Origin: a virus
DNA length: 64,000 nucleotides
Strand: one strand, 5' to 3'
IMG/VR virus record: IMGVR_UViG_3300020385_000660
Location: 1 to 64,000 of that record
Shown: piece after piece, positions 5,575 through 41,950 of the stretch
Layout: each line of letters opens with the position of its first letter
How positions within the stretch are numbered: the stretch's first letter is position 1
Notes under the pieces: generated by a model
Databases searched by the model: none
What the model was told of the DNA's origin: nothing
What the model saw: the letters and a program-made list of their open reading frames with translations, nothing else
Made by a program: the position numbers and the translations under genes

Positions 5575-5594
5575 TTTATTCTACCCAGGATAAT

Positions 5595-5602: not shown

Positions 5603-5608
5603 TAAGGA

Positions 5609-5743: not shown

Positions 5744-5763
5744 AACCCCTAAATAAAAAAGTT

Positions 5764-5913: not shown

Positions 5914-5932
5914 CTTAATTTTATTATATTTG
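5901..5932 (+). promoter_or_regulatory. Bacteroidota-type promoter
   Basis: TTG at 5901-5903 followed after 21 bases by TATATTTG (5925-5932), matching the -33/-7 architecture of Bacteroidota. It overlaps the 3' end of the Cys-rich ORF. Predicted start near 5939, reading into an untranslated stretch. Confidence 0.55.
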
Positions 5933-19986: not shown

Positions 19987-22900
19987 ATGGCTGCAAAAAA
20001 TTGGATCTTATCCAAGCCTGTTACAGGTAAGGTTATAGAATTACGATCTGGAAGCGAGGTTCTAGTTGTAAATGAGGTATATAATTTTTCTTTACCTACT
20101 CTCAAAGGAGTATTAATTAATCAAAAAGATTATAGACATGCAGCACTAGATGGTACTGTAACTACATACCAGTTTGAAAAATTTGCTGCAATTTTACCTA
20201 AGTTAGCTTTTAAAGTAAAAGCAGTTCTTGGAGTTGATAAATATATTATTGAATATTTATCTGACGATAGACTTTTAAATTTACCACCTACAACTATTCC
20301 GTTAAGTTATTTTACTAGAGGTGAAGTTACATATTTTGATGAAGATAGTCAAAAAGAAGTAACTTACATGATACCAACAAGACTTTATGAAGTACCAAGT
20401 CTTGTAGGAATTTTAGATGAAAGGTGTTTAAATTATACACCTCTTAGTCAGACAGATACAGGGTTTACAGGAGAGTGTATTCTTAATCCGGATACATTTA
20501 TAGATGCATGTACTGATGGAAGAGCTTGGAATAGCTTAAAAACTTCTAATCAAAAGAGTAGCCTTGAAGTTTATGAAGCCTCTTGTAAATATGACTATAC
20601 CGGGTTTGAAAGCGAACAAGCTTTACTAAGAGATCCTTCTGTTAATGCAGCCGCTAGAAACGGATTCAATTATATTGATATAGTTTATGGAGAAATAAGC
20701 TACGGCGTTTATCAATTAGGTCTTGGAATTTCACCATATTTAACAGGAGTTACCGGAAGCTATTGGGATCTATCTTATGATCCTGCTGTAGGTTTTGATG
20801 CTACTGATGGGTATGATGACGCGACTATGCCTACAGTAACACTTGCTCCAGGTACTCATGTTATTGCTGTGCAAGTTGACGCTGCAGGTGGTACAAGTTT
20901 TATAGACTCTGTAACAATAATTGTTTCACCAAATCTGAGTGGTTGTACTGATCCTAATGCTTCTAATTATAATGTTAATGCAACTGTTGATGACGGCAGC
21001 TGTATAGCTATGCTTAAAGGGTGTATGGATGACGGAACATCTTTTAGTAATACTTATTACACAGGAGGTTTTCCTGTAGTTCAAAGTGTTGTTCCAGCAA
21101 TACCTGGGCAAGCAGCTTCAAATTATAATTCTGCGGTAACTCAACATTCCCCTCAAATGTGTACATATAAAATTTGTACTGATGCTGGGGCAAATAATTA
21201 CAAAAATCCTGACGATATAGTTAATACTGATCCTTCTGATGGTACCACTTTTCCTTTAAATCAAACTGTTCAAGTAGATCCGACAGGACCTTGTACATAT
21301 GAAGGGCAAGTTAATGGTTGTACGGATCCAGGAATTTCAAATGCTTCATTCTATAATCCAGGAAATATATACAATACATTTACAGTTGCAACTACCACAG
21401 GATCTACTGCGGTAGGAGGTAATGTAACTATGGATCCTGATAATTCTCATTGGAATTTTAATCCACATGCAAATACTCAAAGTGGGAGATGTATACCAAA
21501 ATTTATAGGGTGTTTAGATCCTTTAGCTTCTAACTATGTAACTCCTACAGGTAATCCAGATATAGATGTAAACTGGCATATACCTTCAATGTGTGAATAT
21601 AGTGCTTGTTCAGATTCAAGTGCAGATAATCAACATCATCTTGATGGTGGCGCTACTGCTACAGATATTACTGTTGCAGGAGTTGATGATTGGGGATACA
21701 AAGCAGATGGAAGTAGTTGGAGTGAAACAGAATATTGGATAGCTGAAGATTTAGGAACAAATACTACTTTAACTACTAGTAGTGCTCAATATAATGAAGA
21801 CAATACATTATGTACTTTTGATGTAGGATTAGACGATATTTGCGGCGCAGGCTCTCCTCAAATACTTGAAGATGCTGTATCTCAAGCTCTTCAATCTAAT
21901 CAAATTGGTTATAATAATACAGCTGTTGTGGTAGGTACTTATGCAGGGCAATTAGATCCAAGTACAGGTAATGCTTGTTTAAGCCAACTAACTGCAACAC
22001 AGTCGGCAACAGTTGCTGGTATTTCTTATCAACAAGTTACTCAAGAAAAAGTTTTTTGCCAAGTTATTAGTGCTAGTAACCCTGTTTTATATTTAACAAA
22101 TCCAGAAATTAATGGTACAATCGTTTGGAACTATACTGGAAGTACAGGAGGAGGAGCAGATATAAATATAACTAATATTTCTGATACTGATGCTTCAAAT
22201 GTATCTAACGCTTTAACTGCGGCTAATTATAACAATAGTTTAAGTCCAACAGCATATTACTATTTTAGAGTTATAAGCGCTGAAGATGATCCTGTTAATG
22301 GATTAACGTTATCACGAGATTTTGGAACTAATCCTATTATAGCTTTATTTGATGATGCTAATATTACAAAAGTAGGATACCAACAAGGATCTTATTACTA
22401 TGTTCCTGGCGGAGCAGTTAGTAATTTCCAAGCAGGAGATTCAAATATTGATATTCCAATAGGGTTTGCTGTAGGTACAGATTCAGATGGTAATATATTA
22501 AGTTCTACACAAAGTGGTGCAGGAGGCGGCGGTAATAATTGTAGTCATGCGACTATAGATAATGGTACGGCTGCTGCAGAACCAATGTATACAATATACA
22601 GGGTAGAGGTAGCTAATATGTGCGCATATACTGCTTTAAATTTTGTAATTGATGCAGATTTATCAAATGTGCCAGATGAAATTACAATTAATAACACACC
22701 AGTTTTTGAAGGTTCATCAGTAGGATGTACAGACCCAACTGCAACAAATTATAATTCATCAGCAACTTCGCAAGATTTGGCAGCTAATTATATGTTTGGG
22801 CCAGGCCTTCCATACACATGGCCAATGGCATTATCTGATGGGTATTGTTATATAGAAGGATGTGTAGACGAGTATTACACAGCAGCAGATCCGTCAAATA

Positions 22901-25900
22901 ATTTAATAGTAAGTAGCAGTCTTATATCGGGCACAGATATACCATTACAAGTAGGTATTTATATGCCAGATTTAGGTGGTTACATATATAGAATTTACAA
23001 CGGAGAAGTATGGATTGTTTCTATAGTAGATCTTGGTAATAGCGCTGAGTACACTTATGATGGCGCACTAGGTGCAGTAGCAGCTTATGACGGGGGAGGA
23101 TTTAATGACTGGGAGTTACCTGACGCTGAAAACTTAGTTGCCATATATAACAATGTAAGTAGTCCAACTAGTCGTGTAGATATTATTATAGATCCTGATG
23201 AATATTGGAGCAGTACTCTTCATTCAGAAGGTTATGCGCATACGTATAATTTTGCATCCGGTCCAACTTTAACTACTCCTAGAATAGTTTCATATGAAAC
23301 TCAAGTAAGAGCAGTTAGAAGTGTTCCATTATCTGAAGTTATTGATATTACTACTTACAATGATAATTGTGGTAGCGGAATTAATCAGTATGGTTGTACA
23401 GATCCGGCGGCATCAAATTATGTTGCAGGCGCTACTGCAAGTCCAATAGTAGGAGATATTTCTTCTAATTGTACATATGGATTTCATATAGAAGATTGGA
23501 CTGAAGGAACTAATAATTACAACGATCAAATAATTGCTTTAGGATATACAGATACAGTAGATGAGGATGGTACAGTAATTAGTACAGCATCTGAAAATTT
23601 TGCAAATGGGCAACTTAGCTATTCTGAGCAAGTAGGATATGAGCCATACGGAACATTTATAATTCATTATAGCAGTGTTCATGCGTGGAACCACCCTACA
23701 AAACAAGGGGTTATCCTTCCTTCGGAGCCTACTTGCTTGTCAGATAGGTTAGTACCATTTATTCCTATACAAGTGTCAAATGGAACTCCATCATCAGTAA
23801 CTGCTGACCCAAATTTAAATTTTGGTTATAATCAAGATGGTGGTTTTTATACTAATAGAGTGCAAGTAATTGGTAAAAAAGATTCTAATACAGATACTAT
23901 TAATTACACTTTGTATGCTACTAATCCAGAATTAGATTCTCAGTATTTTTATCAACTACAATCAGGATCTCATTTAGCTTCAAATGAATCTACATATTTA
24001 TTAGGAAATTCTACTAGTAGTATACTTGGTGCTATAACTTCAGAAAGCGCTCATTCACTAGCTGAACAATTCGCAAGTGCGGGATATGTTAGTAGTGATA
24101 ATGGAGGATTTACAAGAAAATCTAACCATGCGTATTATTTTAGATTTGATAAAAATTTATCTTATTCTATAAATCCTAACACTGGGTTAGATTGGACTCC
24201 TTCAGAAATGCTTAATGATCTTTTTGGAAATACAAATGTTTTTATAAAAGATATGCTCGGCGATGCTTATTGGCCAGCTTTAAATTTTCATAATCTAAAC
24301 AGCTATAACGTTAATTCACTTGACCCTCAATCTAATTTATATTATAGCGATGATGCTGATTATCAGCATCTATCATTTGGAAATTTTTTAAGTTCTAGGT
24401 ACGATGAGCCTACAACTGGCAATGAATTAATTACTGATTATAATTTTCCAGATAATAATGGTGGAGGAGAATGGACTGTAGTAGGTGCGACTGCGGTAGG
24501 ACCAATTACTTTTGTTGATTCTGGAGGCGGAGATTATGTAGCAAGACGCACAAGTACTGGAAATGCAATAACAGGGTTACAACAACAAATAGCTGTAACT
24601 CCAGGTAAAAAATACAGCATAACTTATAAGAAAAAAGTAAATATAGCTGGCACAGATACATCTTATTTTGATTATGCTAAAACGTATGTTGAGATAGTAC
24701 CTGATGGCACTAATTATGGGGAAGCAATCGAATACGCTGCTAATCAATATTTTACTGATGGTACAGAACAAACTGTTACAGATACTTTTACTTATGTAGG
24801 ATCAGCAACTTCTATTTATGTTGTTTTATATCTCTCAGGTCCTTGGGAAGGAGACATTACTGAGTTTAGCATTAAACAAGTAGACGAGTATCCAGATGGG
24901 TATATTACGCAAGAGTTTAGAGATAACACTGTTGCATGTAATGATGCAAAAACTCCTGGATATTATCTATACCAATTAATTCCTGATGGTAGTCTTGATA
25001 CATATGATTTTTCTCCATATTTTGAATATCAAGATGAGGTATCAGGATGTATGGATGATACAGCATTAAATTATAATTCTGATGCTACACTAACTCAAGG
25101 TAACTACAATGATTGTTTATATTATTTAACTTCTTGTGATGGTACTAATCCAGAAATTACAGTAACTCCTCATGACGATACAGCTGTAAATGGAGTTGGA
25201 TGTGCTCAAGCTTATGATGTAACTGTAAATGCGTGTCCAAGTGTAATATCTAACGCTCAAATATCTATAGTGTTAGGTCAGTTACAAACTAATAACACTA
25301 ATTCTGATATAGCTTTACCTAACGGTGATATACTTCCAGCTTTACAATCAGTGTATGTGCCTGTACTACAAATTGTAGATATTGAACCTTGTATTGAAGG
25401 TATTCAACAAGATGATTCTCCAGCAGTAATAGCGTCATTTACATATGATCCTACTTCTGAAGATTACCAATTTGCTAGTATATCTAACGAAGCTAATATT
25501 TCATATATTACTGGAGGAGTAGGTATAGCGCCTAATTCAGATATAACATACTCGTCTCAATTCCAAATTCAATACGATGAGTATTATACAGATCCTGATG
25601 GTAATATTTTATTTGGAGGACCTAATGAGATAAGCTATGAGTTTAGTGACTCTACATTATATAATGATAACTCTTTAATATCACCTATTATTGATGGGTG
25701 TACTACTGTGGAGTCATTTAATTATAATCCTAATGCTACTTGTGACGATGGTAGTTGTTTAGAGTATGTTTACGGATGTACAAATCCATTAGCATTTAAT
25801 TACAATTCGGATGCAAATACAAATGACGGAACTTGTATTCCTTATGTATACGGGTGTACAGACACTGAAGCTACTAACTATACGTATAATGTAAATGAAG

Positions 25901-28900
25901 TTGCAGATAATACAAATTTAATTGGTACATCTACTTACGGGGATATTTCATCTGTATCAAGCACCTTTGGTCCTTTTCCAAATGCTAGTACAAATTACGA
26001 TATTAATACTTCAGTACCTGAAGTTTGTTTTTATTGTCCAAACCTTTTAGGGGCTGATGGATCTACAAACCAAATAAATGTTGAGTATGCATCAGATGAC
26101 ACTCTTCCAAGTTTTTCAAATTTAAGATTTACTTGGAATTCAAATATAAATTCAGGTGACTCTTCTTTATCAGCTGCTACTGATGTTACTGTGCAAGTAA
26201 CTATAATTTACGAAGAGTTTTCTTTAACTACAGCTGTAGAAGATGGTAATACTATATATACAATTAATGAGTACGATATTGTAAGTTCAGTAACTGATAC
26301 TGAAATGTATTCTTATGATCAGTTGGAAGACGGTATTATATTAGAATATTTTAAAATGCCTACCACTAGTACTGCTACTAGAATTAAGTCATTAGAGTTT
26401 ACAGCATACTACAATCCAGGACCAAATGGAGTAAACAGATGTTTACAAAAAATTAATCATGTTGTAGATCATAGTTTATATCCAAACTTTTTACTAGGGT
26501 GTACAGATTCAACAGCATTTAATTATTATGATAATAGTGATTATACATCAAGCGGTTTAACTACTGGGATATTTGTTACAGATATAGATGGTAATACAAC
26601 TGAAATAAATGTTATTACTCCTCCAAATTCTGATAACGGTCTTATATGTCAACCTGTAGTTGAAGGATGTATTGACGCTACAGCTGATAACTATAATGCG
26701 GCAGCAAATACAGATAATGGATCTTGTCTATATTCAGGTTGTACTAATAATACTGCATCTAATTATAACCCTCAAGCAAATGTTGACGATGGTTCATGTA
26801 TTATTTACGGTTGTACACAATCATGGGGAGTAAACTATAATGCTGATGCAACAGATGATGATGGTTCATGTAAGACATATGGTTGTACAGATGCTACTGC
26901 TTATAATACACATTGGTGTTTAGATGCTAGTGACCCATGTTTTTCAAATAATTCTTATACATCTAGTGCTATACATAGTACTACATGTTACTACCAAGGA
27001 TGTATGGATGCTGGTAACGGAGTTAATCAGCCGGTAATTAATTTAGCTAATGAGTTTGCTTCTGAAAGTACTAGTACATACACTTTAAACGATGTTTTAG
27101 CAAATGTTCCTGCTGGAATTACTCACAACATGAATAATCAAATTGCTGAAGTAGTATCAGCTCCAGGTAATCCAGGAGAGCAAGCAACTAATTATAGTGC
27201 AAGTAATACTATTTCTGGTACTTGTTATTATGAGGGGTGTACAGATCCAAACGCGTCTAATTACGAACCTAACGCAACTACTAATGATGGTACTTGTGTG
27301 TATGAAGCATGTATAGATGAAACTGCATCTAATTATGGGGAAGGTGTTACAGTAACTGGTAATGCTTCAGAGCAAACAAATATTCAAAATACATGTTTAG
27401 GTCCAAATTTATTAGCTCCTGCAAATTCATTAAACTTTAATTATTGGCATGCAGGTATTAATGCTAATATAGTGCAAGTTAATCCTGTAAGAATAGAAAC
27501 TAATCCTTCTTATGTATCAGGAAATCCAGCAGCTAGAGTAGTATTAAGCCCATTTAATCCTCAAATAACATTGTCTGGTGGATCTTTAACTACTCCATCT
27601 ACATATAGTATACTTGAATATGATGAAACTGCGGGTACTAATAGTGCTGGAGTTGCTACAACAATATTATATCCAGAAGTTGCAGCTAACAGTGATGTTT
27701 TAGTTTATAATTATAACGTACAATTATCTGTACAAAGTGTAGCAAGTGGAACTACATTAACAGTAAGAATAAAAGAATATAAAAATGTTACTGATATTAA
27801 TGACCTTAATGTTTCAAATTGGGGATCTTCTTCAACTTTACCATACACTGAAACAGGAGTTACAACTTTAATATATGATAGTGTTTCAAATTTGTACATA
27901 GCTACAGGGTGGACGCCGCATTATCAAACGGAATTAGTTGTATTAGAAATGTCTAACTTAACATCGGGGGACAGTGTAAAAATAAATAATATAACATTAG
28001 CTAGAGAAACATGTTCAGATGTAGTACTAACACAGGAGTGGTTTAACGGTTTAGTTGAATCAGGGCTTAATGTGTCGTTAGATCTTGATAATGCAGAAGC
28101 ACTTATACCTGTAGGAGGTCTTCAAAATAATGATCCTTATTTTATTACAATAAGAAAATATTTTAATGAAGCATTAGCATATACTACAAGTTGGGGAGGA
28201 GAATTTAATTTAAATCCTAATAATGATTTAATGCCTGGTCATACAGGATCTACTTATTTCCCGGATGCAAGTAATGAAACTTGGAGAAGAACTTGGTTTG
28301 TAGGAGATAATATGCTTAGATTTGTTAAAATAACTCCGGAATATGTAGCTAAATTTAAAGTTAGTGAATGGCCTTACAATCCGATGAATATCGCAGATCA
28401 TCTGATTCCTGCTCCATTTAATCTAGATGAACCTAGAGTTGTTTTATCTCAATCATCTGTGACTTATGGTACTGATCAGTTATACAGATTAGATTTTAAA
28501 GCTAGACTGACTCCTGGAAATGCCACTAGTGAAAAAAAATCTATTGGAGTCTCAGATTATGTGGGAACAGAAACTAATCAAGGGGGAAGTACTTGGTATT
28601 ACTCTACAGAAGTTAATCATCTTTATTCGGAAAGTGGAGTATATAATGCTATTCCAAACAATCAAAATAATTATATATTAGAATCAGATTGGGTTGAGTA
28701 TACTGTATATTGGTATCCTACATCTAATTCAAACGGTATAGCTTTATATAATTATGGTCAAAATGATAATTATGAATTTGAAGTTAAACATATACGAATT
28801 GAAAGAGTTGTTCCTTCGGTATATAATACAACAACTGATACATGTTACATCTTTGGATGTGGAGCTTCTGGATTATATCCTGTAGGCCACGCTAATGAAG

Positions 28901-31900
28901 GTCAGCCTTGGGCAACTAATTATAGTGCTGATGTAAATTCTGAAATTGGTATTGAGGTAGCGCCAGGAACAGTAGGGCCTAACAACGAATTACCTTGTGA
29001 ACTTGCAGGATGTATGACTCCAGGAATGGATAATTACAATGAATTTGCAACATATGATGACGGATCTTGTTATAAATATGGATGTATGGATAGCGGACTT
29101 ATTGAGGCTGATTATTCTCCATACCCTGCTCCAATAACTTTAGAAGAATATTTAGCATTAAATCCAGACAATGGTGCTCTTGATTTTACTCCAGGTTTCC
29201 CTGCAGATAATTACGATGCTTTAGCAACTATTAATCAAGTAAGTGATATTGACTCTTCTAACCCTTGCTTATATACAGGATGTACTGATTCATCTTCATT
29301 TAATTATAGTTCACTTTATACAACAACAGATAATAGCACCTGTATAGATATAGTATCAGGATGTTCTGATAGATTTGCTGCTAATTATAATCCAAATGTA
29401 AATACTGAAAGTGGTACTTGCTGTCTTCAATTGCTAGGTACGGATGCTGATAACGATGGAGTATTTGAATTACAAAATAATATATACGGTCACTCTATTA
29501 CTTCTTATACGTATTCGGGAGTATCAGCTGCAGCTAAACCAATTTTATTTGAATTAGTAAATTATGATTGTGTGGGAGATGCAGATGTAGATTTACAATT
29601 TAAATCTGGTTATAACGTGTTACCAGATAATTTATTAAACAGTGATGGTACACCTAAAGTTGGTAATATTACTATAAATGCATATCCTGAATCAGGAGGC
29701 ACAATAGATGATACTGATACTACATTCCCTACAATAACTAAAACTTGGTCTCAATTACAATCAGGGCCTGTTACAGTTGATATTTATAACTCAGCTCCAA
29801 CTGTATTAGCAGTTTATATAAGAGTGCAATTTACTTACAGTAATTATTCTCAATCTAGTGAAGATGGAGAAAATGGAACAAGTTGTACATATTCAGTAGA
29901 TTTACATTTAGATTCTGATTGCGCTTCTGTGTCAGGATGTACAGATGATGGATGGAATACTACAGCTATTGATGGGTTTAACGCTCTTAATTTAGGATTC
30001 CCGCAACAAGATTTTAATCCAAATGTAAATTTACATGTTTCTAGTGATTGTGATGGAGCGCATGTTTTAGGTTGTATGGATGAGCACTGGGCTATACCTG
30101 CAAATCAGCACGTAGGTGAAGGAGCTTCTACAACGCAAACATCTTGGGATAATTTTAATTATAATATTGCTGCCACTGGTAATGATATTCAAGGAAATGC
30201 ATATGACGGATATAGCGCAACTCCTACTATTAATATGTATGATGACACCTATCTTGGTAATAGTACTGGTTCATTATACGGTACAAGTTTGGGGGCATAT
30301 CACCCAATATATGCTGATTTAAATTTACTTGATGATACAGATCCTGAAAGTGCTCAACACTCAGGGACTCCGTCGCCTAATACATTTGAAGGTTCAGTAT
30401 ATGGATGTTTCCCTAAAGTATATGGATGTACAAATAATGCTAAATTTAATTGGAATAACTGGTATCACGCAGGAAATATAAATCCTACAACAGGAACTAA
30501 TTATACTGGAACTGAATTTGGTGCATTAAACTTTGGTACTCAGTATCATCAAGATCCTACTATAAATCCTAATACTAATCTTGCTTGGACGTTTGACGAA
30601 CTAGTAAGAAATGAGCACTATTTATATAATGTAAATACTGCAGGTACTACTCAAGGTAATGCTACTGACACATGTTTCAATGTAGTTGGAGGATGTACTG
30701 ATTCAACTGCTGCAAACTTTGTTACTCCATCGGGAGGATCAGCAACTACAACAGAAGGAGCATTAGCTGCTTCAGAAGGTTTAGGAAGTAACGTAAACAC
30801 AGAAAATAACTCATGTTGTTATGATGCTAGTGATTTACCAGCTGATGTTGATTATCCTTTCAGTGTAACTCCAGCATGTAGTACATTACCTGTAGTTTAT
30901 GACACTAATATTTATAATACTTTAGACTTTACTTCAGGATGGTCAAATCTAACAAGTGGTACAGCTGTTGCTATTCCTCACGCTACTTCTGTTATTTTTG
31001 CAACAACTTCAGGTTTTCCTAATGTATACGTATTAGACGCTTTAGCAAATTTAGATGTTGGAAAAAGATATGAAATAACTATAACAGGTCTGGTTTCATC
31101 TGGGCAAGTTACTGCAGCTATATATTGTGCAAATGAAGCAAAAGTAGCTGCTTTAAGTGGAGATCCTATTGCAGACTTTGTTGCTGATTTAACAACTCCT
31201 AATAATGGTACTGGAGTAGGAGGACAAAATGGGAATTCCTTTTATGAGACTGTAACAAGTACACAGACATTTATTACGCCAACAATTCAAACTGGATTTA
31301 AAGATATAATATTACTATTATATGGTACTGTTAATTCTGCTACATTTGCAATAACTAATATAGATATAAAAGAATGGAAACATCCTAGTCATGGTGTAAC
31401 AACCAATATTCTTTTAGATAGTTGGCCAGAATTAGTAAATGGTGTAATTGATTATTCTCAAATAACATCTATAACTGCAGAAACTCAAAATGCAAGTAGT
31501 GGTGCAATTTATAATTCAGGTTCTAAAACACTAGCTGATTTCCAGAATGGTGTTGATTTATACACTTATATATATAATGATGCAGCTTCAAATGCTGAAA
31601 CTTCAGGTACTTACAATTCTACTTATAATATAGGAGGAACTAATAACTCTGATGGAAGTTTTGTAGATCCTAATCTAGCTACAAAAATTGTATATACAAT
31701 TAATTATAATGCTGAAAATGGTTCTGCATGTAGCTCAAATGCTATTGTAGTTACAAAAAATATTGGTGGAACTGGTATTGCTGCAAGTGATACTAGATGT
31801 AGCACTGTTTATGGTTGTATAGATAATACGTATTTACAATTTTATTTAAATAACAATGCTGGAAATGCGTCAGCTATTAATAACTTTACTTGGGGTGATT

Positions 31901-34900
31901 CACATGGAGCCACTATAGATAATGGATCTTGTACTACTGTTGTAGCATCTGGATGTGTAAATGCAAATTATGTAGAAGCATACCCAAATAAACAAGAAGC
32001 TTTAACGCCTAATTGGGCAAGTGAAGATACAGAGTTTACAGAATTTACTAATACTCAATTATTTACTCCTGAAGGAAATCCTGTATACGGATTCTTAGGA
32101 ACAATTGGTACAAGTATTCCTGCGGGACCTAGTCAAACTTATCCTAATGTTGTAACAAATATTTCCAATGTAGGTTTATGTGAAGATGAAATTATCTATG
32201 GATGTGTATTAGATCATTTTGCTGAATATTGGGGAGCTCAATCTACACCTTCAAATTCAAATACGATTTTTGGAATAAATAGTAATCAAGGTTCATTTAT
32301 AAGTGAAGCTAATAATATTAAATCTTGGGCTAACGTCTCTTTAGAGAATGACCCTTCAAATGCATTATCTGGTGTATCCGAAAATCACGCTCTATTATTA
32401 GGATGTGGGAATTTAACTACTCCTAAAATTGGTTGTGTAGAGCCTGTACAATATGTAGATTATACATACCCAGGAGCTACTAGTATTACAACTAATATAC
32501 AAACATCTTGGTGTAACTATGACCCTTTACACAATATAAAGGCACCGGCTAATAGTAATAACGATTGTCAAGGTTTAATAGGATGTGTAGATCCTGCCTA
32601 TATAGAATTTGATGGTATTTCTACAACTTCGCCTGCTGCTAATATTACTAATGTTGGAGATGCATTTAGTTGTAATCATTTAGGAAGCTATTTGAACAAT
32701 TATATAACCAACTATACCGGTACTCTTTTCTCTAGTCCACATTACCCTGAACATGCTGTATCACTTAGTATTAATCCTTGTGGAATTGAATCAATTCCTG
32801 GTTGTACAGATTCCGATTATGTTGAATATAATCCAGATGCAAATGTTTACGAGCAAGGAGCATGTCAAACTATTATTGTACAAGGGTGTACAGATACTAA
32901 TTATTGTGAATACTACACAGGGGCTCAGAATATACCAGGAATTGGAGTAATACATCCTACAGTTTCAATTGACGGAGCTTGTCAGACATCAATAGGATGT
33001 ACTAATCCTTTGTATTTAGAAGCTTACAATGAGAACTATGACGCTACTAATTTAGAATTAACTGGAGATGCAGTTTATGGAACTCCAACAAATGGGTGTA
33101 CTAGTTTTACTCCTTCGGGAATATCCTTAGCAACATTTTTAAGCTCAAATCCAAATAATACTGTCCAACAATATCAAAATGCGGGATGTACTACTCCAAT
33201 TGTAGTGGGGTGTACAGATAACACTAAAGATGAGAACGGAAATAATTTGTATTTAAATTACAATCCAAATGCAAATTTAGCATGTTATGATGGAGAAACT
33301 TATAATTCATGTTGTTTTGAAGCTATACCTGGATGTACAGATGGTTCTATAAATGAACTTACAGGTAATTTAAATTATGTAAACTTTAATTCAGCAGCTA
33401 CTTTAGATGATGGTTCTTGTATTCCAGCCATTGAAGGATGTACTCAAAGTGGTCAATTTGGATTTGATGTAGGAGCTAATTTAGATAATGGATCTTGTTT
33501 GCCAGTTATTACAGGATGTTTAAATGAAACTTTCCCATATAATGGAACAGATACTCCATCAGCTAATCAAGTTGCAGGATATGATCCTACAGATCCTAAT
33601 ACAATTACATATCCTAATACACATCTAGATTCTGAATGTTTCCCTATTATCGAAGGTTGTACTGATCCTACAGCAATGAATTATAATAATATAGGTCCAG
33701 TGCCTACAGATCCTATTCCTTTAGATACTAGTGCTAATGCAAACTTTATAAATGTAAATACAGATAATAATACTTGTCTTTACATTTTAGATGGTTGTAT
33801 GGATCCTTGTGCAAATAACTATGATCCAAATGCTACAGTATCTGGCACTTGCTTCTATACTGCAGGATGTACAGATTCTCAAGCTTACAACTATGAACCT
33901 GATACAAATCAAAACGATGGTTCTTGTTTGTACTGTGAAGATTGGTCTGCTACAACGGTAGGTTCTCCGTATATACAAGTTACTGATAATACATCATTTA
34001 TAAACGGTGTAAGTTCTGAAGACGGAGCTATATCAATAACTCCAATATCTACTAGTGGTGTAACTACAGGTTATAGTGTACGTTGGTATTACTCTACACC
34101 AGACAATAGTGTGCAAGGTCAGCCATTACCACAATATAACGATGCTATTTCTCTTACAGGATTAGCTCCTGGATATTATAGTTTTGAATTGTACAGTTCT
34201 TCTAGTCCTAATTGTGCTCCTGGCTCATCTACACAAGGTTACCCTGCAGTACAAAGTCATGTTCATTCAGGTGTAAATTGTAGTTTTGATGAAGGAGAAG
34301 AGCAATCATATGTTGTTTCACCGGGCCCACACTTGCAATTTGTACTTGTGCTCACTGACGGAGTTGGGTGTACAGATAGTGCAGGAATAGAATATAGTCA
34401 CAATTCCTTGGGCGAGCTTAATCTTACAGCAGAAGGAGGAACTTTTAATACGTATACTCCTGGCGCTTCTACAACTACTACGCTATCTGCTAGTAATTAT
34501 GATTCTTTTGCAAATGTAGATGATGGTAATTGTGTGTATCCTGGATGTACTGATCCTTCGGCATTAAACTACAGCGCATCTGCTACGGTAGAAAGCGGAA
34601 CTTGTATTTACATTCAAGGATGTCAAGATCCATTAGCTTGTAATTATAATCCTGAAGCTACTGTTTATGGACCATGTTCATACAAAGCTATATACAGAGA
34701 CTGTAATGGTGTTTGTTTAAGTGGTGAAGTTACTGATAGTAATCCTCTTGGAGAGTCTTTACAATTCCCAGGATTATGTCCTGAACAAGTATTATCAGAT
34801 TGTATAGATACAGAAGCTATTAACTTCCAGCCGGTAGTAAATCAAACAAGAGTTATACCAGGAGGATCTTCTCAACGTATGAGAATTGTTACAGCTCCTG

Positions 34901-35601
34901 TAGCTATAGAAGATGATGGATCTTGTGTATATGAAAATCCTTGTATACCTACAGATATTTATGATATAATTGATGCTTTAGCAGATACAGTTAATGATCA
35001 AGGTAGAACAGTTTTAACTAATCTTCGTACAGGAATGTTAGATCCTGCAGATGTTGCTACTATGTGGACATTAATGTTAGTAGATTATGTAGTTAACAAA
35101 GTAGGATTTGACGGATTCTATAATTGTGCAGGATATAATTATGAGGGTCAAGTTACCTATACTGAAGGAGTTGATAGCACAAATTATTTTGATAAATTCC
35201 TTACATTTGCATTTAAGCAAGGGGATGAGCATTTTGCAGGAGTACAAAGTAATAGATCTAGAGCACTTGTTTCTTCTGCTAGCAATATGACTAAACAAGC
35301 TTCTAGAAACGCACTTGGATTAAATGATGTTGTAACTTCAAATTGCAACTGTCAAATAATCTGCACAGATGGTAGAGAGTGGATGGCAAATTATGCGTGT
35401 GAAAGTAATTGTGATGAGTGCTGTTCAAATGCTAATGTGGAGCTTTGTGGAGGTTCTAAAAATACTACAAATATTCTTAGCAATACTTCTAACACAAGTT
35501 CTACTACAATTAATGTTACATCTGCTAGTAGTAATGTGTCCTACAGCACAAACGGACAATCAACGTCTATATCTAGAAATAACAGAAATAGAAATTATTA
35601 A
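19987..35601 (+). CDS. Giant 5204-residue Cys-repeat protein, probable fibre/receptor-binding protein
   Basis: One uninterrupted frame of 15.6 kb. The N-terminal 310 residues are unique and beta-rich, likely a virion anchor. From about residue 316 to 4950, some 45-50 units follow the pattern GCTDPxAxNYNxxAxxDDGSC; many are expanded by long inserts. Inserts include an Lcl/DUF1566-like module (about 985-1115; FNDWELPDAENL, EYWSSTL, VRAVRS) and several galactose-binding-like jelly-roll candidates (about 1478-1635, 2471-2680, 2770-2945, 3638-3800). The C-terminal region has a helical stretch (IDALADTVNDQGRTVLTN), a Cys cluster and a Ser/Thr/Asn-rich tail. No signal peptide, so it is a virion protein rather than a secreted one. 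The repeat family is known from surface proteins of Bacteroidota, so a host origin is likely. Most likely role: adhesion to the host surface. Confidence 0.85.
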   Translation: MAAKNWILSKPVTGKVIELRSGSEVLVVNEVYNFSLPTLKGVLINQKDYRHAALDGTVTTYQFEKFAAILPKLAFKVKAVLGVDKYIIEYLSDDRLLNLPPTTIPLSYFTRGEVTYFDEDSQKEVTYMIPTRLYEVPSLVGILDERCLNYTPLSQTDTGFTGECILNPDTFIDACTDGRAWNSLKTSNQKSSLEVYEASCKYDYTGFESEQALLRDPSVNAAARNGFNYIDIVYGEISYGVYQLGLGISPYLTGVTGSYWDLSYDPAVGFDATDGYDDATMPTVTLAPGTHVIAVQVDAAGGTSFIDSVTIIVSPNLSGCTDPNASNYNVNATVDDGSCIAMLKGCMDDGTSFSNTYYTGGFPVVQSVVPAIPGQAASNYNSAVTQHSPQMCTYKICTDAGANNYKNPDDIVNTDPSDGTTFPLNQTVQVDPTGPCTYEGQVNGCTDPGISNASFYNPGNIYNTFTVATTTGSTAVGGNVTMDPDNSHWNFNPHANTQSGRCIPKFIGCLDPLASNYVTPTGNPDIDVNWHIPSMCEYSACSDSSADNQHHLDGGATATDITVAGVDDWGYKADGSSWSETEYWIAEDLGTNTTLTTSSAQYNEDNTLCTFDVGLDDICGAGSPQILEDAVSQALQSNQIGYNNTAVVVGTYAGQLDPSTGNACLSQLTATQSATVAGISYQQVTQEKVFCQVISASNPVLYLTNPEINGTIVWNYTGSTGGGADINITNISDTDASNVSNALTAANYNNSLSPTAYYYFRVISAEDDPVNGLTLSRDFGTNPIIALFDDANITKVGYQQGSYYYVPGGAVSNFQAGDSNIDIPIGFAVGTDSDGNILSSTQSGAGGGGNNCSHATIDNGTAAAEPMYTIYRVEVANMCAYTALNFVIDADLSNVPDEITINNTPVFEGSSVGCTDPTATNYNSSATSQDLAANYMFGPGLPYTWPMALSDGYCYIEGCVDEYYTAADPSNNLIVSSSLISGTDIPLQVGIYMPDLGGYIYRIYNGEVWIVSIVDLGNSAEYTYDGALGAVAAYDGGGFNDWELPDAENLVAIYNNVSSPTSRVDIIIDPDEYWSSTLHSEGYAHTYNFASGPTLTTPRIVSYETQVRAVRSVPLSEVIDITTYNDNCGSGINQYGCTDPAASNYVAGATASPIVGDISSNCTYGFHIEDWTEGTNNYNDQIIALGYTDTVDEDGTVISTASENFANGQLSYSEQVGYEPYGTFIIHYSSVHAWNHPTKQGVILPSEPTCLSDRLVPFIPIQVSNGTPSSVTADPNLNFGYNQDGGFYTNRVQVIGKKDSNTDTINYTLYATNPELDSQYFYQLQSGSHLASNESTYLLGNSTSSILGAITSESAHSLAEQFASAGYVSSDNGGFTRKSNHAYYFRFDKNLSYSINPNTGLDWTPSEMLNDLFGNTNVFIKDMLGDAYWPALNFHNLNSYNVNSLDPQSNLYYSDDADYQHLSFGNFLSSRYDEPTTGNELITDYNFPDNNGGGEWTVVGATAVGPITFVDSGGGDYVARRTSTGNAITGLQQQIAVTPGKKYSITYKKKVNIAGTDTSYFDYAKTYVEIVPDGTNYGEAIEYAANQYFTDGTEQTVTDTFTYVGSATSIYVVLYLSGPWEGDITEFSIKQVDEYPDGYITQEFRDNTVACNDAKTPGYYLYQLIPDGSLDTYDFSPYFEYQDEVSGCMDDTALNYNSDATLTQGNYNDCLYYLTSCDGTNPEITVTPHDDTAVNGVGCAQAYDVTVNACPSVISNAQISIVLGQLQTNNTNSDIALPNGDILPALQSVYVPVLQIVDIEPCIEGIQQDDSPAVIASFTYDPTSEDYQFASISNEANISYITGGVGIAPNSDITYSSQFQIQYDEYYTDPDGNILFGGPNEISYEFSDSTLYNDNSLISPIIDGCTTVESFNYNPNATCDDGSCLEYVYGCTNPLAFNYNSDANTNDGTCIPYVYGCTDTEATNYTYNVNEVADNTNLIGTSTYGDISSVSSTFGPFPNASTNYDINTSVPEVCFYCPNLLGADGSTNQINVEYASDDTLPSFSNLRFTWNSNINSGDSSLSAATDVTVQVTIIYEEFSLTTAVEDGNTIYTINEYDIVSSVTDTEMYSYDQLEDGIILEYFKMPTTSTATRIKSLEFTAYYNPGPNGVNRCLQKINHVVDHSLYPNFLLGCTDSTAFNYYDNSDYTSSGLTTGIFVTDIDGNTTEINVITPPNSDNGLICQPVVEGCIDATADNYNAAANTDNGSCLYSGCTNNTASNYNPQANVDDGSCIIYGCTQSWGVNYNADATDDDGSCKTYGCTDATAYNTHWCLDASDPCFSNNSYTSSAIHSTTCYYQGCMDAGNGVNQPVINLANEFASESTSTYTLNDVLANVPAGITHNMNNQIAEVVSAPGNPGEQATNYSASNTISGTCYYEGCTDPNASNYEPNATTNDGTCVYEACIDETASNYGEGVTVTGNASEQTNIQNTCLGPNLLAPANSLNFNYWHAGINANIVQVNPVRIETNPSYVSGNPAARVVLSPFNPQITLSGGSLTTPSTYSILEYDETAGTNSAGVATTILYPEVAANSDVLVYNYNVQLSVQSVASGTTLTVRIKEYKNVTDINDLNVSNWGSSSTLPYTETGVTTLIYDSVSNLYIATGWTPHYQTELVVLEMSNLTSGDSVKINNITLARETCSDVVLTQEWFNGLVESGLNVSLDLDNAEALIPVGGLQNNDPYFITIRKYFNEALAYTTSWGGEFNLNPNNDLMPGHTGSTYFPDASNETWRRTWFVGDNMLRFVKITPEYVAKFKVSEWPYNPMNIADHLIPAPFNLDEPRVVLSQSSVTYGTDQLYRLDFKARLTPGNATSEKKSIGVSDYVGTETNQGGSTWYYSTEVNHLYSESGVYNAIPNNQNNYILESDWVEYTVYWYPTSNSNGIALYNYGQNDNYEFEVKHIRIERVVPSVYNTTTDTCYIFGCGASGLYPVGHANEGQPWATNYSADVNSEIGIEVAPGTVGPNNELPCELAGCMTPGMDNYNEFATYDDGSCYKYGCMDSGLIEADYSPYPAPITLEEYLALNPDNGALDFTPGFPADNYDALATINQVSDIDSSNPCLYTGCTDSSSFNYSSLYTTTDNSTCIDIVSGCSDRFAANYNPNVNTESGTCCLQLLGTDADNDGVFELQNNIYGHSITSYTYSGVSAAAKPILFELVNYDCVGDADVDLQFKSGYNVLPDNLLNSDGTPKVGNITINAYPESGGTIDDTDTTFPTITKTWSQLQSGPVTVDIYNSAPTVLAVYIRVQFTYSNYSQSSEDGENGTSCTYSVDLHLDSDCASVSGCTDDGWNTTAIDGFNALNLGFPQQDFNPNVNLHVSSDCDGAHVLGCMDEHWAIPANQHVGEGASTTQTSWDNFNYNIAATGNDIQGNAYDGYSATPTINMYDDTYLGNSTGSLYGTSLGAYHPIYADLNLLDDTDPESAQHSGTPSPNTFEGSVYGCFPKVYGCTNNAKFNWNNWYHAGNINPTTGTNYTGTEFGALNFGTQYHQDPTINPNTNLAWTFDELVRNEHYLYNVNTAGTTQGNATDTCFNVVGGCTDSTAANFVTPSGGSATTTEGALAASEGLGSNVNTENNSCCYDASDLPADVDYPFSVTPACSTLPVVYDTNIYNTLDFTSGWSNLTSGTAVAIPHATSVIFATTSGFPNVYVLDALANLDVGKRYEITITGLVSSGQVTAAIYCANEAKVAALSGDPIADFVADLTTPNNGTGVGGQNGNSFYETVTSTQTFITPTIQTGFKDIILLLYGTVNSATFAITNIDIKEWKHPSHGVTTNILLDSWPELVNGVIDYSQITSITAETQNASSGAIYNSGSKTLADFQNGVDLYTYIYNDAASNAETSGTYNSTYNIGGTNNSDGSFVDPNLATKIVYTINYNAENGSACSSNAIVVTKNIGGTGIAASDTRCSTVYGCIDNTYLQFYLNNNAGNASAINNFTWGDSHGATIDNGSCTTVVASGCVNANYVEAYPNKQEALTPNWASEDTEFTEFTNTQLFTPEGNPVYGFLGTIGTSIPAGPSQTYPNVVTNISNVGLCEDEIIYGCVLDHFAEYWGAQSTPSNSNTIFGINSNQGSFISEANNIKSWANVSLENDPSNALSGVSENHALLLGCGNLTTPKIGCVEPVQYVDYTYPGATSITTNIQTSWCNYDPLHNIKAPANSNNDCQGLIGCVDPAYIEFDGISTTSPAANITNVGDAFSCNHLGSYLNNYITNYTGTLFSSPHYPEHAVSLSINPCGIESIPGCTDSDYVEYNPDANVYEQGACQTIIVQGCTDTNYCEYYTGAQNIPGIGVIHPTVSIDGACQTSIGCTNPLYLEAYNENYDATNLELTGDAVYGTPTNGCTSFTPSGISLATFLSSNPNNTVQQYQNAGCTTPIVVGCTDNTKDENGNNLYLNYNPNANLACYDGETYNSCCFEAIPGCTDGSINELTGNLNYVNFNSAATLDDGSCIPAIEGCTQSGQFGFDVGANLDNGSCLPVITGCLNETFPYNGTDTPSANQVAGYDPTDPNTITYPNTHLDSECFPIIEGCTDPTAMNYNNIGPVPTDPIPLDTSANANFINVNTDNNTCLYILDGCMDPCANNYDPNATVSGTCFYTAGCTDSQAYNYEPDTNQNDGSCLYCEDWSATTVGSPYIQVTDNTSFINGVSSEDGAISITPISTSGVTTGYSVRWYYSTPDNSVQGQPLPQYNDAISLTGLAPGYYSFELYSSSSPNCAPGSSTQGYPAVQSHVHSGVNCSFDEGEEQSYVVSPGPHLQFVLVLTDGVGCTDSAGIEYSHNSLGELNLTAEGGTFNTYTPGASTTTTLSASNYDSFANVDDGNCVYPGCTDPSALNYSASATVESGTCIYIQGCQDPLACNYNPEATVYGPCSYKAIYRDCNGVCLSGEVTDSNPLGESLQFPGLCPEQVLSDCIDTEAINFQPVVNQTRVIPGGSSQRMRIVTAPVAIEDDGSCVYENPCIPTDIYDIIDALADTVNDQGRTVLTNLRTGMLDPADVATMWTLMLVDYVVNKVGFDGFYNCAGYNYEGQVTYTEGVDSTNYFDKFLTFAFKQGDEHFAGVQSNRSRALVSSASNMTKQASRNALGLNDVVTSNCNCQIICTDGREWMANYACESNCDECCSNANVELCGGSKNTTNILSNTSNTSSTTINVTSASSNVSYSTNGQSTSISRNNRNRNY

Positions 35602-37787: not shown

Positions 37788-38000
37788 ATGGAAATATTTA
37801 AAGATAATAATAATTGGAATGAAAAGGCAGTTGTAGGCTTTATAGCTTTTGCAATCATGTGCCTTATAATGGTAGCCGATCTTGTAACAGGATGGGTGGG
37901 TACCGATTTAGTAATTAACGAGTTTGTATATGACTCATTTGTATGGGTTGTCCTAGGGTGCTTTGGTATCTCAGGAGTAGAAAAATTTGCTAAAAAATGA
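37788..38000 (+). CDS. Small membrane protein with two TM segments
   Basis: A 70-residue protein with helices at about residues 14-34 (VVGFIAFAIMCLIMVADLV) and 47-63 (FVWVVLGCFGISGVEKF). Size and topology suit a small holin or inner-membrane accessory protein. Its stop overlaps the start of the T9SS cargo gene, so it may instead belong to the export cassette. Holin versus accessory cannot be decided here; a better holin candidate lies at 42841. Confidence 0.65.
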   Translation: MEIFKDNNNWNEKAVVGFIAFAIMCLIMVADLVTGWVGTDLVINEFVYDSFVWVVLGCFGISGVEKFAKK

Positions 38001-40234
38001 GAAAATTAATTTACATATTATTAATATTAACTCTAGCAACAAACGCTCAAGATAGTATATTTGTAGACTGTGTAGGAAATGAAGCTCCTGAAAATTGGTT
38101 AGGAGATGGCTATTGTGATAATGAAGCTTATGCTTGGGGTGGTAATTTTATTGACTTTAATTGTGAAGAGTTTGGTTACGATAACGGAGATTGTCCTATA
38201 CCAATAGATACTGTACCAGGATGTATGAACATGTTGGCATTAAACTATGTACCAGAAGCTAACTTTAATGATGGCTCTTGCGAGTTTCCTGTATTTGGAT
38301 GCACAGACCCAGAAGCTCCTAATTTTAACCCTTGGGCAGAAGCTGATGACAATAGTTGTGTCGGTGTAAGCTGCTCTGATGGTGAAGCCAAGATGATTTT
38401 GGAGCTTACTCTAGACCAATACCCTGGTGAAACAGGATGGATACTAACAGACATAACTACAGGACAACCTGTAGACAACGTAGTAGCAGGAGAGTATTCA
38501 TACGAAGAAGCAAATCAAACTATTGTATACGATTTATGTGTGCCTGAAACAGGTGTAGAACTTATATTAAGCGATATATACGGTGACGGTTTAGAGGGAT
38601 CTTTATTTGGTGGTACAGACGGTAATTTTGTAATACTTGGTGATGCAGAGCCTTGTGGTAGCTTGGATACATTATGGGCATTAGATACTGCAGGTTTTGG
38701 TAGTGCTGCTTATTCAGGACCTATATGGTTAGAGCAATGTGATTTACCTATTGTAGAAGGATGTACTAATAATACATATATAGAGTTTAATCCAGGAGCC
38801 AACTTTGATGACGGTAGCTGTGAAACACTACACACACTAGGATGTATAAACCCTAACGCATTTAACTTTAATCCACAAGCTACATTAAACGAAATAGTAC
38901 CTACATGTAATTACACTCTTATTATAGAAGATGACGGTGGTGACGGATGGGGTGACTGTTATATAGGTGTAGTGCAAGAAGACAGTATTCTTGGTACATA
39001 TACTATGGGACCTGGCTCTTACTCACAAGAGTTTGGTATAACACTAGAAACAGATAAGCCTGTAAAGGTATATTACTTTGAAATAGCTAGCCCACAAACT
39101 CCTGCTGCAGAAGTCGCTTTCCAGACTATGCATAACTCATTTAGACTTATTAATTCAGCAGGCGATATATCTTTGCAAGGTGGTGTGTATCCATTTGCAG
39201 ATAATGGTGCTGGAGCTTTAAAAGCATATGCCCCTCCTTTTTGGCAAGTGTATACAGGCCTTCCTTTTTGCGGAGATTACTGTATACCTACAGTGTACGG
39301 GTGTTTGGATGAACAATCTTTAAACTATAACTCTGACGCAAATACCAATGATGGTTCTTGTATTGAGATAGTAGAAGGTTGTACCTCACCCTTCGCATTT
39401 AATTACGATTCGCTTGCTAATGTAGATGATAACAGTTGTGTGCCTGTTGTAGTTGGTTGTATGGATAATGTAGCTTGGAATTATAACTTTGCAGCTAATA
39501 CTGAAGATGGTTCCTGCCTATACTTTGGGTGTATGGATGAAGCAGCTGATAACTATGATCCTATAGCTAATGTGGATAATGGAGCTTGCTTTACTACTGT
39601 GTTTGGCTGTACCGATCCAGAAGCTTTCAACTACAATGAAGAGGCAAATACAGAGGATTTTAGTTGTGTGCCATTTATATATGGTTGTATGGATAGTACA
39701 GCATTTAATTACGATCCATTAGCAAATACAGACGATGAATGTGAAAGTATTGTAGAAGATTGTATGGATATTCTAGCTTACAATTATAATGAGTTTGCTA
39801 ACACGGAAGGAGAATGTTTGTATGATGCAGGATGCATTGATGGTCCCGGCATACCATATTGGTTAAACGATTCATGTTATGCTTGGGTTATTATGATAGA
39901 TCCATATTGCTGTAATAACGAGTGGGACGATAAATGCCAACAAATATATTGGAGTTGTTCTTGGGATAGTCCATTAGATACAAGAGATTTACTTAGAGGG
40001 CACGACATAGTTATGTATCCTAATCCTATGGGCGATATATTAAATATATTAATAAATGGACCTGTAGGCATAGAAGTATATGATGTGTCAGGAAAACTTG
40101 TAATACGAGTTAACGAAAGTCAAACTTCAAAAGGTTTAAATCAATTAGATGTAAGTTTATTACCTGCAGGAATATATAATTTTAATATCACATATGATAA
40201 TAACATTAGCACAACAAAAGTATTAAAGCGATGA
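37997..40234 (+). CDS. Secreted surface protein with T9SS sorting domain, LNR and GCTD repeats
   Basis: A 745-residue protein built like a flavobacterial cell-surface protein. Signal peptide 1-17 (LATNA cut before Q18). A Lin-12/Notch-like Cys module spans about C25-C66 (GDGYCDN, GYDNGDC). Eleven GCTD-type repeats (e.g. FGCTDPEAFNYNEEAN) match the repeat of the 5204-residue protein. Two DxxGDG beta modules (SDIYGDG, DDGGDGWGD) interrupt them. Then comes a DPYCCNNEWDDKC Cys motif. Residues about 672-745 are a classic Por secretion C-terminal domain (MYPNPMGDILNI, VYDVSGKL, LLPAGIYNF, KVLKR). Expected route: Sec to the periplasm, then T9SS to the cell surface. Its stop overlaps the barrel gene (ATGA). 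Confidence 0.9.
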   Translation: MRKLIYILLILTLATNAQDSIFVDCVGNEAPENWLGDGYCDNEAYAWGGNFIDFNCEEFGYDNGDCPIPIDTVPGCMNMLALNYVPEANFNDGSCEFPVFGCTDPEAPNFNPWAEADDNSCVGVSCSDGEAKMILELTLDQYPGETGWILTDITTGQPVDNVVAGEYSYEEANQTIVYDLCVPETGVELILSDIYGDGLEGSLFGGTDGNFVILGDAEPCGSLDTLWALDTAGFGSAAYSGPIWLEQCDLPIVEGCTNNTYIEFNPGANFDDGSCETLHTLGCINPNAFNFNPQATLNEIVPTCNYTLIIEDDGGDGWGDCYIGVVQEDSILGTYTMGPGSYSQEFGITLETDKPVKVYYFEIASPQTPAAEVAFQTMHNSFRLINSAGDISLQGGVYPFADNGAGALKAYAPPFWQVYTGLPFCGDYCIPTVYGCLDEQSLNYNSDANTNDGSCIEIVEGCTSPFAFNYDSLANVDDNSCVPVVVGCMDNVAWNYNFAANTEDGSCLYFGCMDEAADNYDPIANVDNGACFTTVFGCTDPEAFNYNEEANTEDFSCVPFIYGCMDSTAFNYDPLANTDDECESIVEDCMDILAYNYNEFANTEGECLYDAGCIDGPGIPYWLNDSCYAWVIMIDPYCCNNEWDDKCQQIYWSCSWDSPLDTRDLLRGHDIVMYPNPMGDILNILINGPVGIEVYDVSGKLVIRVNESQTSKGLNQLDVSLLPAGIYNFNITYDNNISTTKVLKR

Positions 40235-41316
40235 AAATGTACAATCGAATATATGAATTATTAGCAGCAATTGGAATTGGTCTATTATTTTCTTTTCTTA
40301 TGCTTGCCTTGTCTCAGGGGTGTAACGCTCAAGGAGTTAAAAATATATTTAAGTACTCTACTATGTATGCTGCAGTTAATGGAGGCACATCATTAGGAGA
40401 CGATCAAGTATGGTCTGTAACGTCAGGTACGTTAGAAGAGCAAGTTATAGAAACACCTTTTGATTACACATTTTCTGTAGGTATTAGAAAGATAAAACGA
40501 TTTGGATATGAGAACAGAGCCAACACTTTTTATAATGGTACGGAAAATTCTTATTCTGATGCCGCGACCATCGGTAGAGTTGATGGCTTTGAGTATTTGT
40601 TCGAAGCTGATTTTGTACGTCGTTTAGGTGTTAACTATACAAACCAGCATCACTTTGTAAGATATGTTGCAGATAAGTGGGTTAGTAAAGTAGAGTACTT
40701 AGAAGATGGATTTGCTGATATAAAATACTTTGAAAGTTCTGAGCGCATTCGTTTAAAAATAGGCGCGAATGAAAAGTTTTCTTTTAATATAGGCGCAGTT
40801 CAACGTCTTTCAGAGCCATATGGTTTTGACCCCCTGGCAGACTGGGTGCTGGACAATGGGACATTACACTATACATATTTGGCACTGCAAGAGGGATACA
40901 ATATAACATTAGATGGACAATACTCAGCACCCAATGGAGAAATAGTAGCAACTAGTCAGGAAGTATGGGAAGAGGTTGTTATACCTCAAGTGATAGATGA
41001 TTACGTAGAAGATCAAAGAAATGCATTACCTAATACAGTAGAGTATTCTGCAGTAGTAGGATTTGATTATTATCATTTTACAAAAGATTTTTGGTTTCAT
41101 AGTTGGGGTAATGTATTACCCTATCATTTAAACGATGGTAACGATTACTCTTATTATCAATACAATGGTAAAAACTGGATAGATTATTCAGGTGGTTTAA
41201 TATTTGGTTATAGATTTAATAAAAGTTTAGGTGCATTTGTAGAAGGTAGATACAATAAGTATTGGAATCGACAATGGCATAACTTTAGTGTAGGAATTAA
41301 TTATGTAATATTTTAA
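40231..41316 (+). CDS. Outer-membrane beta-barrel-like protein
   Basis: A 361-residue protein. A long signal peptide is cut after CNA, before Q34. The mature part alternates amphipathic strands (YTFSVGIRKIKRFGY; RLKIGANEKFSFNIGAVQRL; YSAVVGFDYYHFTKDFWF; GLIFGYRFNKSLGAFVEGRY) and ends in aromatic Phe (SVGINYVIF). A terminal Phe and repeated YxF/GxG strands are the hallmarks of outer-membrane barrels. An SQGC before the cut is not a canonical lipobox. Coupled to the T9SS cargo gene by ATGA. The host of this cargo would need a surface anchor or pore; the barrel may serve it or may block receptors. Not recognised as a named porin. Confidence 0.7.
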   Translation: MKMYNRIYELLAAIGIGLLFSFLMLALSQGCNAQGVKNIFKYSTMYAAVNGGTSLGDDQVWSVTSGTLEEQVIETPFDYTFSVGIRKIKRFGYENRANTFYNGTENSYSDAATIGRVDGFEYLFEADFVRRLGVNYTNQHHFVRYVADKWVSKVEYLEDGFADIKYFESSERIRLKIGANEKFSFNIGAVQRLSEPYGFDPLADWVLDNGTLHYTYLALQEGYNITLDGQYSAPNGEIVATSQEVWEEVVIPQVIDDYVEDQRNALPNTVEYSAVVGFDYYHFTKDFWFHSWGNVLPYHLNDGNDYSYYQYNGKNWIDYSGGLIFGYRFNKSLGAFVEGRYNKYWNRQWHNFSVGINYVIF

Positions 41317-41608: not shown

Positions 41609-41950
41609 ATGAAAAATTTGTTTTTTACATTTATTTTTGTTACTTGTGGGATTGCAACAGCTCAAGATTTTTCTGATGGCATGGTAGCTGTTGAATTTAA
41701 CGCAAGCTTTAACAAAAGTAATGAAATAACGTGGCTATCTAAGTTAACAGATTGTGAAACAGAAAGAGTAGATATAACAGCAGACTCAAGGTGGTCTAAA
41801 GAATATAAGATAGTGGTTGTGCCCACTATTGTAATATTTAATAATAACGAAGAAGTAAAAAGATTTCAAGCCAATATCATGATGACTATGGAAGCCACTA
41901 AAAAAGAAGTGCAAAATTCTATAGATGAAATTGTGATGGAGGCTTTTTAA
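41609..41950 (+). CDS. Exported thioredoxin-fold protein without CXXC
   Basis: A 113-residue protein. Signal peptide 1-18 (GIATA cut before Q19). The mature part follows the thioredoxin order: MVAVEFNASF, then DCETERVDITADSRW, then the cis-Pro strand YKIVVVPTIVIFNNNEEVKRF, then a C-terminal helix. Where the CXXC should be it reads NASFNKSNEI, so it has no redox-active pair. Likely a periplasmic binding or chaperone-like domain rather than an oxidoreductase. It belongs to the exported-protein cassette. Confidence 0.75.
   Translation: MKNLFFTFIFVTCGIATAQDFSDGMVAVEFNASFNKSNEITWLSKLTDCETERVDITADSRWSKEYKIVVVPTIVIFNNNEEVKRFQANIMMTMEATKKEVQNSIDEIVMEAF

Follow-up and report, generated by a model that had tools for sequence, protein, structure and literature searches.

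A crAss-like phage gene with a type IX secretion sorting domain overlaps a gene for a predicted phage outer-membrane barrel

The open reading frame (ORF) at 37997-40234 of the 64,000-nucleotide stretch analysed here (the window; positions 1 to 64,000 of IMG/VR record IMGVR_UViG_3300020385_000660) ends in a genuine type A sorting domain of the type IX secretion system (T9SS), and its stop codon overlaps the start of a gene for a predicted phage outer-membrane β-barrel. The reading that we favor, and consider probable rather than secure, is that this ORF (hereafter the cargo) is a phage-made cargo of the host T9SS, belonging to a surface cassette with late expression. T9SS is found only in Bacteroidota and their relatives, and also drives gliding and polymer degradation. 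In this system the translocon recognizes type A sorting domains through PorV, and a PorU-type sortase removes them. The initial annotation of the window knew of no characterized phage substrate of this system, but a claim to the first one would not be new: phage T9SS sorting domains were described in a 2019 and a 2020 paper (PMC6949934, PMC7468147). What is distinctive at the locus is the neighboring phage outer-membrane barrel gene, which that annotation missed. Phage T9SS sorting domains being already known, it is the cargo-barrel genetic unit that, judged by sequence, appears to be new; no description of such a cassette was found in the open literature, a scope that excludes most subscription papers and all preprints.

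Results

The source contig is that of an uncultured marine crAss-like phage (Crassvirales). A phage profile search identified TerL (phrog_6681, 2e-133), the portal (phrog_6547, 1.5e-127) and the MCP (phrog_11589, 1e-84); ring protein 2 matched CrAss_Ring_2 (PF25702, 2.2e-38), and TerL is ~41% identical to those of human-gut crAss-like genomes (cr60_1). The genes around the cargo run in the order collagen-like protein, 70-residue hydrophobic protein, cargo, barrel, 94-residue membrane protein (TM94), secreted thioredoxin-fold (Trx-fold) protein, 132-residue protein, M15 endolysin, holin and ring protein 2, and the cargo gene has ATGA overlaps with its neighbors at both ends (Table 1). The ORF at 37788-38000, although below the usual ORF length cut-offs, has tblastn matches in 84 related loci. 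No close relative of TM94 was found among GenBank phages.

Table 1 Coordinates of the cargo, its parts and neighboring or related genes in the window
Feature	Coordinates	Strand	Basis or remarks
GCTD-type repeat protein, 5204 aa, 36 loose units	19987..35601	+	Presumed virion fiber
70-aa protein	37788..38000	+	Two hydrophobic stretches, holin-like by appearance; stop overlaps cargo start (ATGA)
Cargo, a secreted repeat protein ending in a T9SS type A sorting domain	37997..40234	+	745 aa, ATG start
Predicted Sec signal peptide of cargo, residues 1-18	37997..38050	+	Sequence inspection; helix 2-16 in AF2 model
Cys-rich LNR/Notch-like stretch of cargo, residues 25-66	38069..38194	+	Sequence inspection
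GCTD-type Cys repeats of cargo, blocks at residues 75-126, 255-304 and 435-606	38219..39814	+	
Cys-rich module of cargo, residues 607-654	39815..39958	+	PYWLND.C..W....PYCCN..WD..C; numerous invariant positions across 62 homologues
T9SS type A C-terminal domain of cargo, residues 673-745	40013..40231	+	PF18962, TIGR04183 and fold; seven-stranded Ig-like sandwich
Predicted phage outer-membrane β-barrel protein, 361 aa	40231..41316	+	AF2 barrel; ATGA overlap with cargo stop
TM94, 94 aa	41319..41603	+	One N-terminal hydrophobic stretch, coiled-coil-like tail
Secreted Trx-fold protein, 113 aa, without CxxC	41609..41950	+	PF00085 at 0.00034, below its cut-off
M15 endolysin	42374-42841	+	PF08291, 2.3e-16; lysis gene just downstream
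3TM holin	42841-43227	+	PF11351, 2.7e-07; lysis gene just downstream

The initial annotation had placed a Por_Secre_tail-type sorting domain at the end of the cargo. The ORF coordinates proved exact and the domain passed every sequence and fold test run. Both families that had been proposed as a check matched at the extreme C-terminus above their curated cut-offs: PF18962 on residues 673-742 (1.9e-12, 47.7 bits versus a cut-off of 27) and TIGR04183 on residues 673-745 over the full profile, 1-72 of 72 (1.2e-11, 44.4 bits versus a cut-off of 23). This is the single PF18962 match over the whole 64,831-bp record from which the window was taken. In an AF2 model built on 62 phage homologues, strands at 671-744 form the sandwich with pLDDT of ~78-88; beyond this domain the whole cargo was poorly resolved as one (pTM 0.36). 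Foldseek matched the C-terminal domain to 8glk_D, which is NucA in the T9SS translocon complex (E 4.6e-5, probability 1.0, TM 0.81 for the target), and VIA-align superimposed the two with Z 12.4 and an rmsd of 1.3 Å over 72 residues at 31% identity. The next VIA-align matches were mirolase, FspA and RemA (Z 11.0, 10.8 and 9.8), so that the top four are all T9SS cargo C-terminal domains, with RemZ, PorZ, PorU and RgpB ranking below.

At the other end of the protein the sequence MRKLIYILLILTLATNAQ followed by D looks, by eye, like a Bacteroidota Sec signal, as do the N-termini of the homologues, also judged by eye. The predicted cut is before Q18 or D19; Q18 does not vary among 62 homologues. 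The cargo contains 39 cysteines. The 11 GCTD repeats described previously hold only loosely, because the literal tetrapeptide occurs just twice; 11 units fit the relaxed form GC[TMLI][DNSQ], and nine follow a strict repeat pattern that shuffled sequences gave 0.03 times on average and at most once. Two β-rich domains (~130-243 and 303-395) lie between the repeat blocks. As Pfam gives no match to residues 25-66, the LNR/Notch-like appearance of that stretch is a resemblance only.

In IMG/VR, 50 loci were recovered in a scan with the cargo and 80 in one with the barrel. Among 63 non-redundant phage cargo homologues 58 keep both PF18962 and TIGR04183, and the other five (L041, L043, L044, L049 and L118) have instead a short tail of the form DILGRP...IYSDG. 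By record, PF18962 was found in 33 of 38 phage records, with one match apiece except for one record with two. Median dN/dS was 0.26 for the C-terminal domain, 0.14 for the whole cargo and 0.57 for the signal peptide, all of them rough values because dS is high, and the Cys-rich module at residues 607-654 gave the lowest value in the cargo (0.10). The C-terminal domain is thus under purifying selection. Cargo modules were present in 55 of 148 Flavobacteriales genomes. By tblastn, no GenBank phage homologue of either cargo or barrel was found, and PF18962 stayed below its cut-off in all six reference genomes of crAss-like or related phages.

The DILGRP...IYSDG tail also replaces the canonical domain in L262 and L264. 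It is matched by 14 ORFs of a Flavobacteriales metagenome-assembled genome (MAG), and is C-terminal in those that were read; it is possibly another sorting tail.

Elsewhere in the window the 5204-residue protein carries repeats of the same family and is 41.8% identical to the cargo over 158 residues. From its sequence it is presumably a virion fiber, and it would be unusual for a probable virion fiber and a secreted protein to share repeats. This raises the question of whether the cargo is itself a virion protein whose export signals were inherited from a captured host gene. Its gene adjoins genes of tail-fiber type and the repeat modules are common in host-type genomes, as such an origin would have it. 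However, the repeat stretches are all that the two proteins have in common, the 5204-residue protein having neither the C-terminal domain nor an export signal visible by eye. Moreover, the cargo keeps both predicted signal peptide and C-terminal domain, the latter under purifying selection, and would be expected to leave the cytoplasm in which virions assemble. We therefore regard a virion role as improbable.

The protein encoded next to the cargo was modeled by AF2 mostly as strands that form a β-barrel (pLDDT 76.7). Its C-terminus, GINYVIF, has an aromatic last residue and its fold matches in the PDB were of a generic porin type (OmpG, CymA and NanC at Z 9.6-10.9, and also Tsx). From this model we infer a location in the outer membrane. 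The barrel matched neither Pfam (42 members, up to 0.1) nor NCBIfam (E up to 1), and had no sequence relative in the PDB. Two T9SS assignments were tried and rejected. Scans for PorP_SprF (PF11751 and TIGR03519) were empty, with hhalign against 11 PorP/SprF proteins giving 4% on the signal peptide only, and hhalign against four PorV-family proteins gave a probability of 0.2% for a PorV-type shuttle. No known T9SS role is therefore indicated for the barrel. Its profile had no match in six crAss-like or related reference phages, in a search run without a positive control. A match was found in BFVD (A0A516LKJ4, E 2e-24); the guess that this entry comes from FPSV-S29 was discarded, as the barrel profile has no match there. 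The barrel was found at four loci in bacterial genomes, of which the fourth aligned over 40 residues alone, whereas the other three contain the phage cassette and so have the appearance of binned phage contigs.

Counting redundant contigs, 108 of 121 loci show a 4-nt overlap between the end of the cargo gene and the beginning of the barrel gene. With duplicates removed, the cargo was present in all 78 testable loci having a barrel of the window's type (type A) and was immediately upstream of it in 69. This constancy, in a fixed gene order, together with the whole-protein dN/dS of ~0.14, disfavors the reading of the cargo as a captured host gene carried as a passenger with no role for the phage. 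That its domains are typical of Flavobacteriales secreted proteins would fit capture, but a passenger seems scarcely credible. The locus sample was type A by construction since it had been drawn using the window's own barrel and cargo, and relatives were therefore gathered by MCP instead. None of the 12 records with the closest MCPs (four of which are short fragments) contained PF18962, and the idea that the cargo belongs to the core genes of the lineage was therefore rejected. The barrel was present in six of these records, in divergent form in three.

Barrels fell into three types that differ in their partners. Type A loci have the barrel plus the cargo, the tail of which is either the canonical domain or DILGRP. 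Type B1 loci (L267-L281) have a barrel 31% identical to that of the window and no cargo. In type B2 (L266 and L282-L361) the barrel is 34% identical to that of the window and the GCTD cargo is absent. All 71 testable loci instead encode a secreted protein of 166-310 residues, and in 46 loci its gene directly follows that of the barrel. Its conserved tail, YNLxGQAIRxPEGIYIENGKIKYK, is unrecognized by known T9SS models and is possibly an undescribed sorting tail. The count of 71/71 for the tail indicates consistency and is not an independent test, as the regular expression was written after the tails had been seen. The tail also occurs in 3 of 60 genomes of the order to which the Flavobacteriales MAG belongs. 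These proteins beside the B2 barrel, encoded at 7056-7775 of L282 and by the equivalent gene in L283-L361, thus make up a second secreted family, its tail reading YNLxGQ..GIYIENGKIKYK.

Types A and B1 were compared using loci in which endolysin identity to the window was at least 70%. The 54 type A and 13 B1 loci proved similar in median identity to the window for endolysin (74% in A, 75% in B1), holin (84% and 89%) and TM94 (76% and 71%). In contrast, barrel identity was 76-88% in A versus 30-33% in B1 and that of the Trx-fold protein 71-94% versus 39-45% (~43%), and the cargo was found in 51 of the type A loci and in none of the B1 loci. TM94, although encoded between barrel and Trx-fold protein, ranged from 70 to 99% in A and from 69 to 79% in B1. 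On the backbone common to both types, barrel, Trx-fold protein and cargo thus change together, and TM94 does not. B1 forms one clade on a tree of endolysin plus holin (support 0.99), and the A/B1 difference therefore counts as one event rather than many. In a comparison of distance matrices within type A, cargo and barrel covaried no more than the background did (partial r 0.04 and 0.26).

The main rival to receptor masking or superinfection exclusion is that the cargo, once exported by T9SS, leaves the cell in soluble form and binds neighboring cells or particles as an adhesin or decoy, the barrel having an unrelated job such as outer-membrane leakage or lysis. This would agree with the encoding of the barrel beside the lysis genes and its occurrence without the cargo, and no anchoring feature besides the C-terminal domain was identified in the cargo. 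On the other hand, both the tight translational overlap of cargo and barrel and the concerted change of cargo, barrel and Trx-fold protein argue for a common task, and we consider release as a decoy unlikely.

The Trx-fold neighbor suggested a catalytic thioredoxin that aids the disulfides of the Cys-rich cargo. This was not supported: the protein lacks CxxC, which is present in only 2 of 163 homologues. One cysteine is kept in 82% of the 163, and the protein varies together with barrel type.

Discussion

We propose the following course of events for a phage-made T9SS cargo. The cargo gene lies between genes of tail-fiber type and those for endolysin and holin and, as judged by sequence, it overlaps the barrel gene at its stop codon. 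Host Sec would export cargo and barrel by way of their signal peptides, and the barrel would enter the outer membrane. The host T9SS would then recognize the C-terminal domain, for which profile and fold are those of a sorting domain, and the cargo would cross the outer membrane; following cleavage of the domain, the repeat protein would either stay on the surface of the infected cell or leave it. Gene overlap and concerted change suggest that barrel, cargo and secreted Trx-fold protein make up one functional set. Display of the cargo on the cell surface can reasonably be inferred from its sequence, and the host presumably possesses a T9SS. In a Flavobacteriales MAG that contains a relative of the cassette, 42 PF18962 matches were found along with PorV and PorP/SprF homologues, although the phage contig in it is possibly misbinned.

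The cassette suggests remodeling of the infected cell surface by the phage. A late change of this kind might mask or replace receptors, keeping sibling phages from adsorbing again to infected cells or debris. Receptor masking or superinfection exclusion seems the most plausible purpose, although we put it forward only tentatively, from the late position of the genes and by analogy with T5 Llp and the Lc porin of phage PA-2, which are phage-encoded surface proteins that block adsorption. These are phage-made outer-membrane proteins that alter the infected cell surface, as proposed for the cassette; to our knowledge, no adsorption-blocking phage protein of this type uses T9SS.

Among bacterial systems, the cargo resembles Bacteroidota type A cargo proteins (NucA, FspA, RemA and RgpB) in its predicted signal peptide, in the models matched by its C-terminal domain and in the fold that this domain shares with NucA, but differs in being phage-encoded and coupled to a phage outer-membrane barrel. 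In pairs of the SprB-SprF type a gene for a type B cargo is followed by one for a PorP/SprF barrel. The window shares this order, with the outer-membrane barrel gene immediately after the cargo gene, whereas its C-terminal domain is type A and its barrel matched PorP/SprF neither in Pfam and NCBIfam nor in profile comparison.

Among phages, Cryophage encodes type A sorting domains, for which hijacking of the host T9SS and possible superinfection exclusion were proposed in 2020 (PMC7468147). Its T9SS-tagged genes are variable, flexible genes (endoglucanase, GH39 and PA14) (PMC7468147), whereas in the window a single repeat protein shares a fixed cassette with a barrel and recurs in many phages. 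According to the accessible part of a 2019 report, crAss-like gut 'cluster 2' phages have T9SS sorting domains and BACON ORFs near structural genes (PMC6949934). That part describes different accessory domains and no barrel partner, and places the sorting-domain genes upstream of the head genes; in the window the cargo gene instead precedes the lysis genes.

A broader reading, which we think doubtful, would join these observations. Marine crAss-like phages would carry a dedicated surface-display cassette in which the barrel family exists as allelic types, each with its own secreted partner or none, the partners ending in one of three host-type tails (T9SS type A, DILGRP...IYSDG or YNLxGQ...GIYIENGK). 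The barrel would hold its partner or help in its export and would set the superinfection-exclusion type; the cassette would then be the phage counterpart of an SprB/SprF pair, with an unrelated barrel in the place of SprF. If the cassette of the favored reading acts as described, abundant uncultured phages would remodel the surface of dying cells by means of a bacterial export machine and their own barrel, and phage competition would be linked to T9SS. The cassette would then also offer a defined gene set for testing superinfection exclusion in Bacteroidota.

Several minor observations concern barrel and window. Across type A loci the barrel N-terminus (40231-40340 in the window) varies: in some it is an ordinary Sec signal (GNAQG), in others a longer hydrophobic stretch that carries a lipobox-like SQGC or looks like a membrane helix, the mature barrels being ~80% identical. 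In one case (L134) the phage cassette is on a contig of a MAG labelled as the archaeon Candidatus Nitrosopelagicus, most likely a binning error. A sigma-70 promoter scan gave no excess over shuffled sequences. At positions 1-6000 of the window the genes are on the minus strand and the GC skew changes near 4-6 kb, a pattern that suggests the junction of two opposite transcription units.
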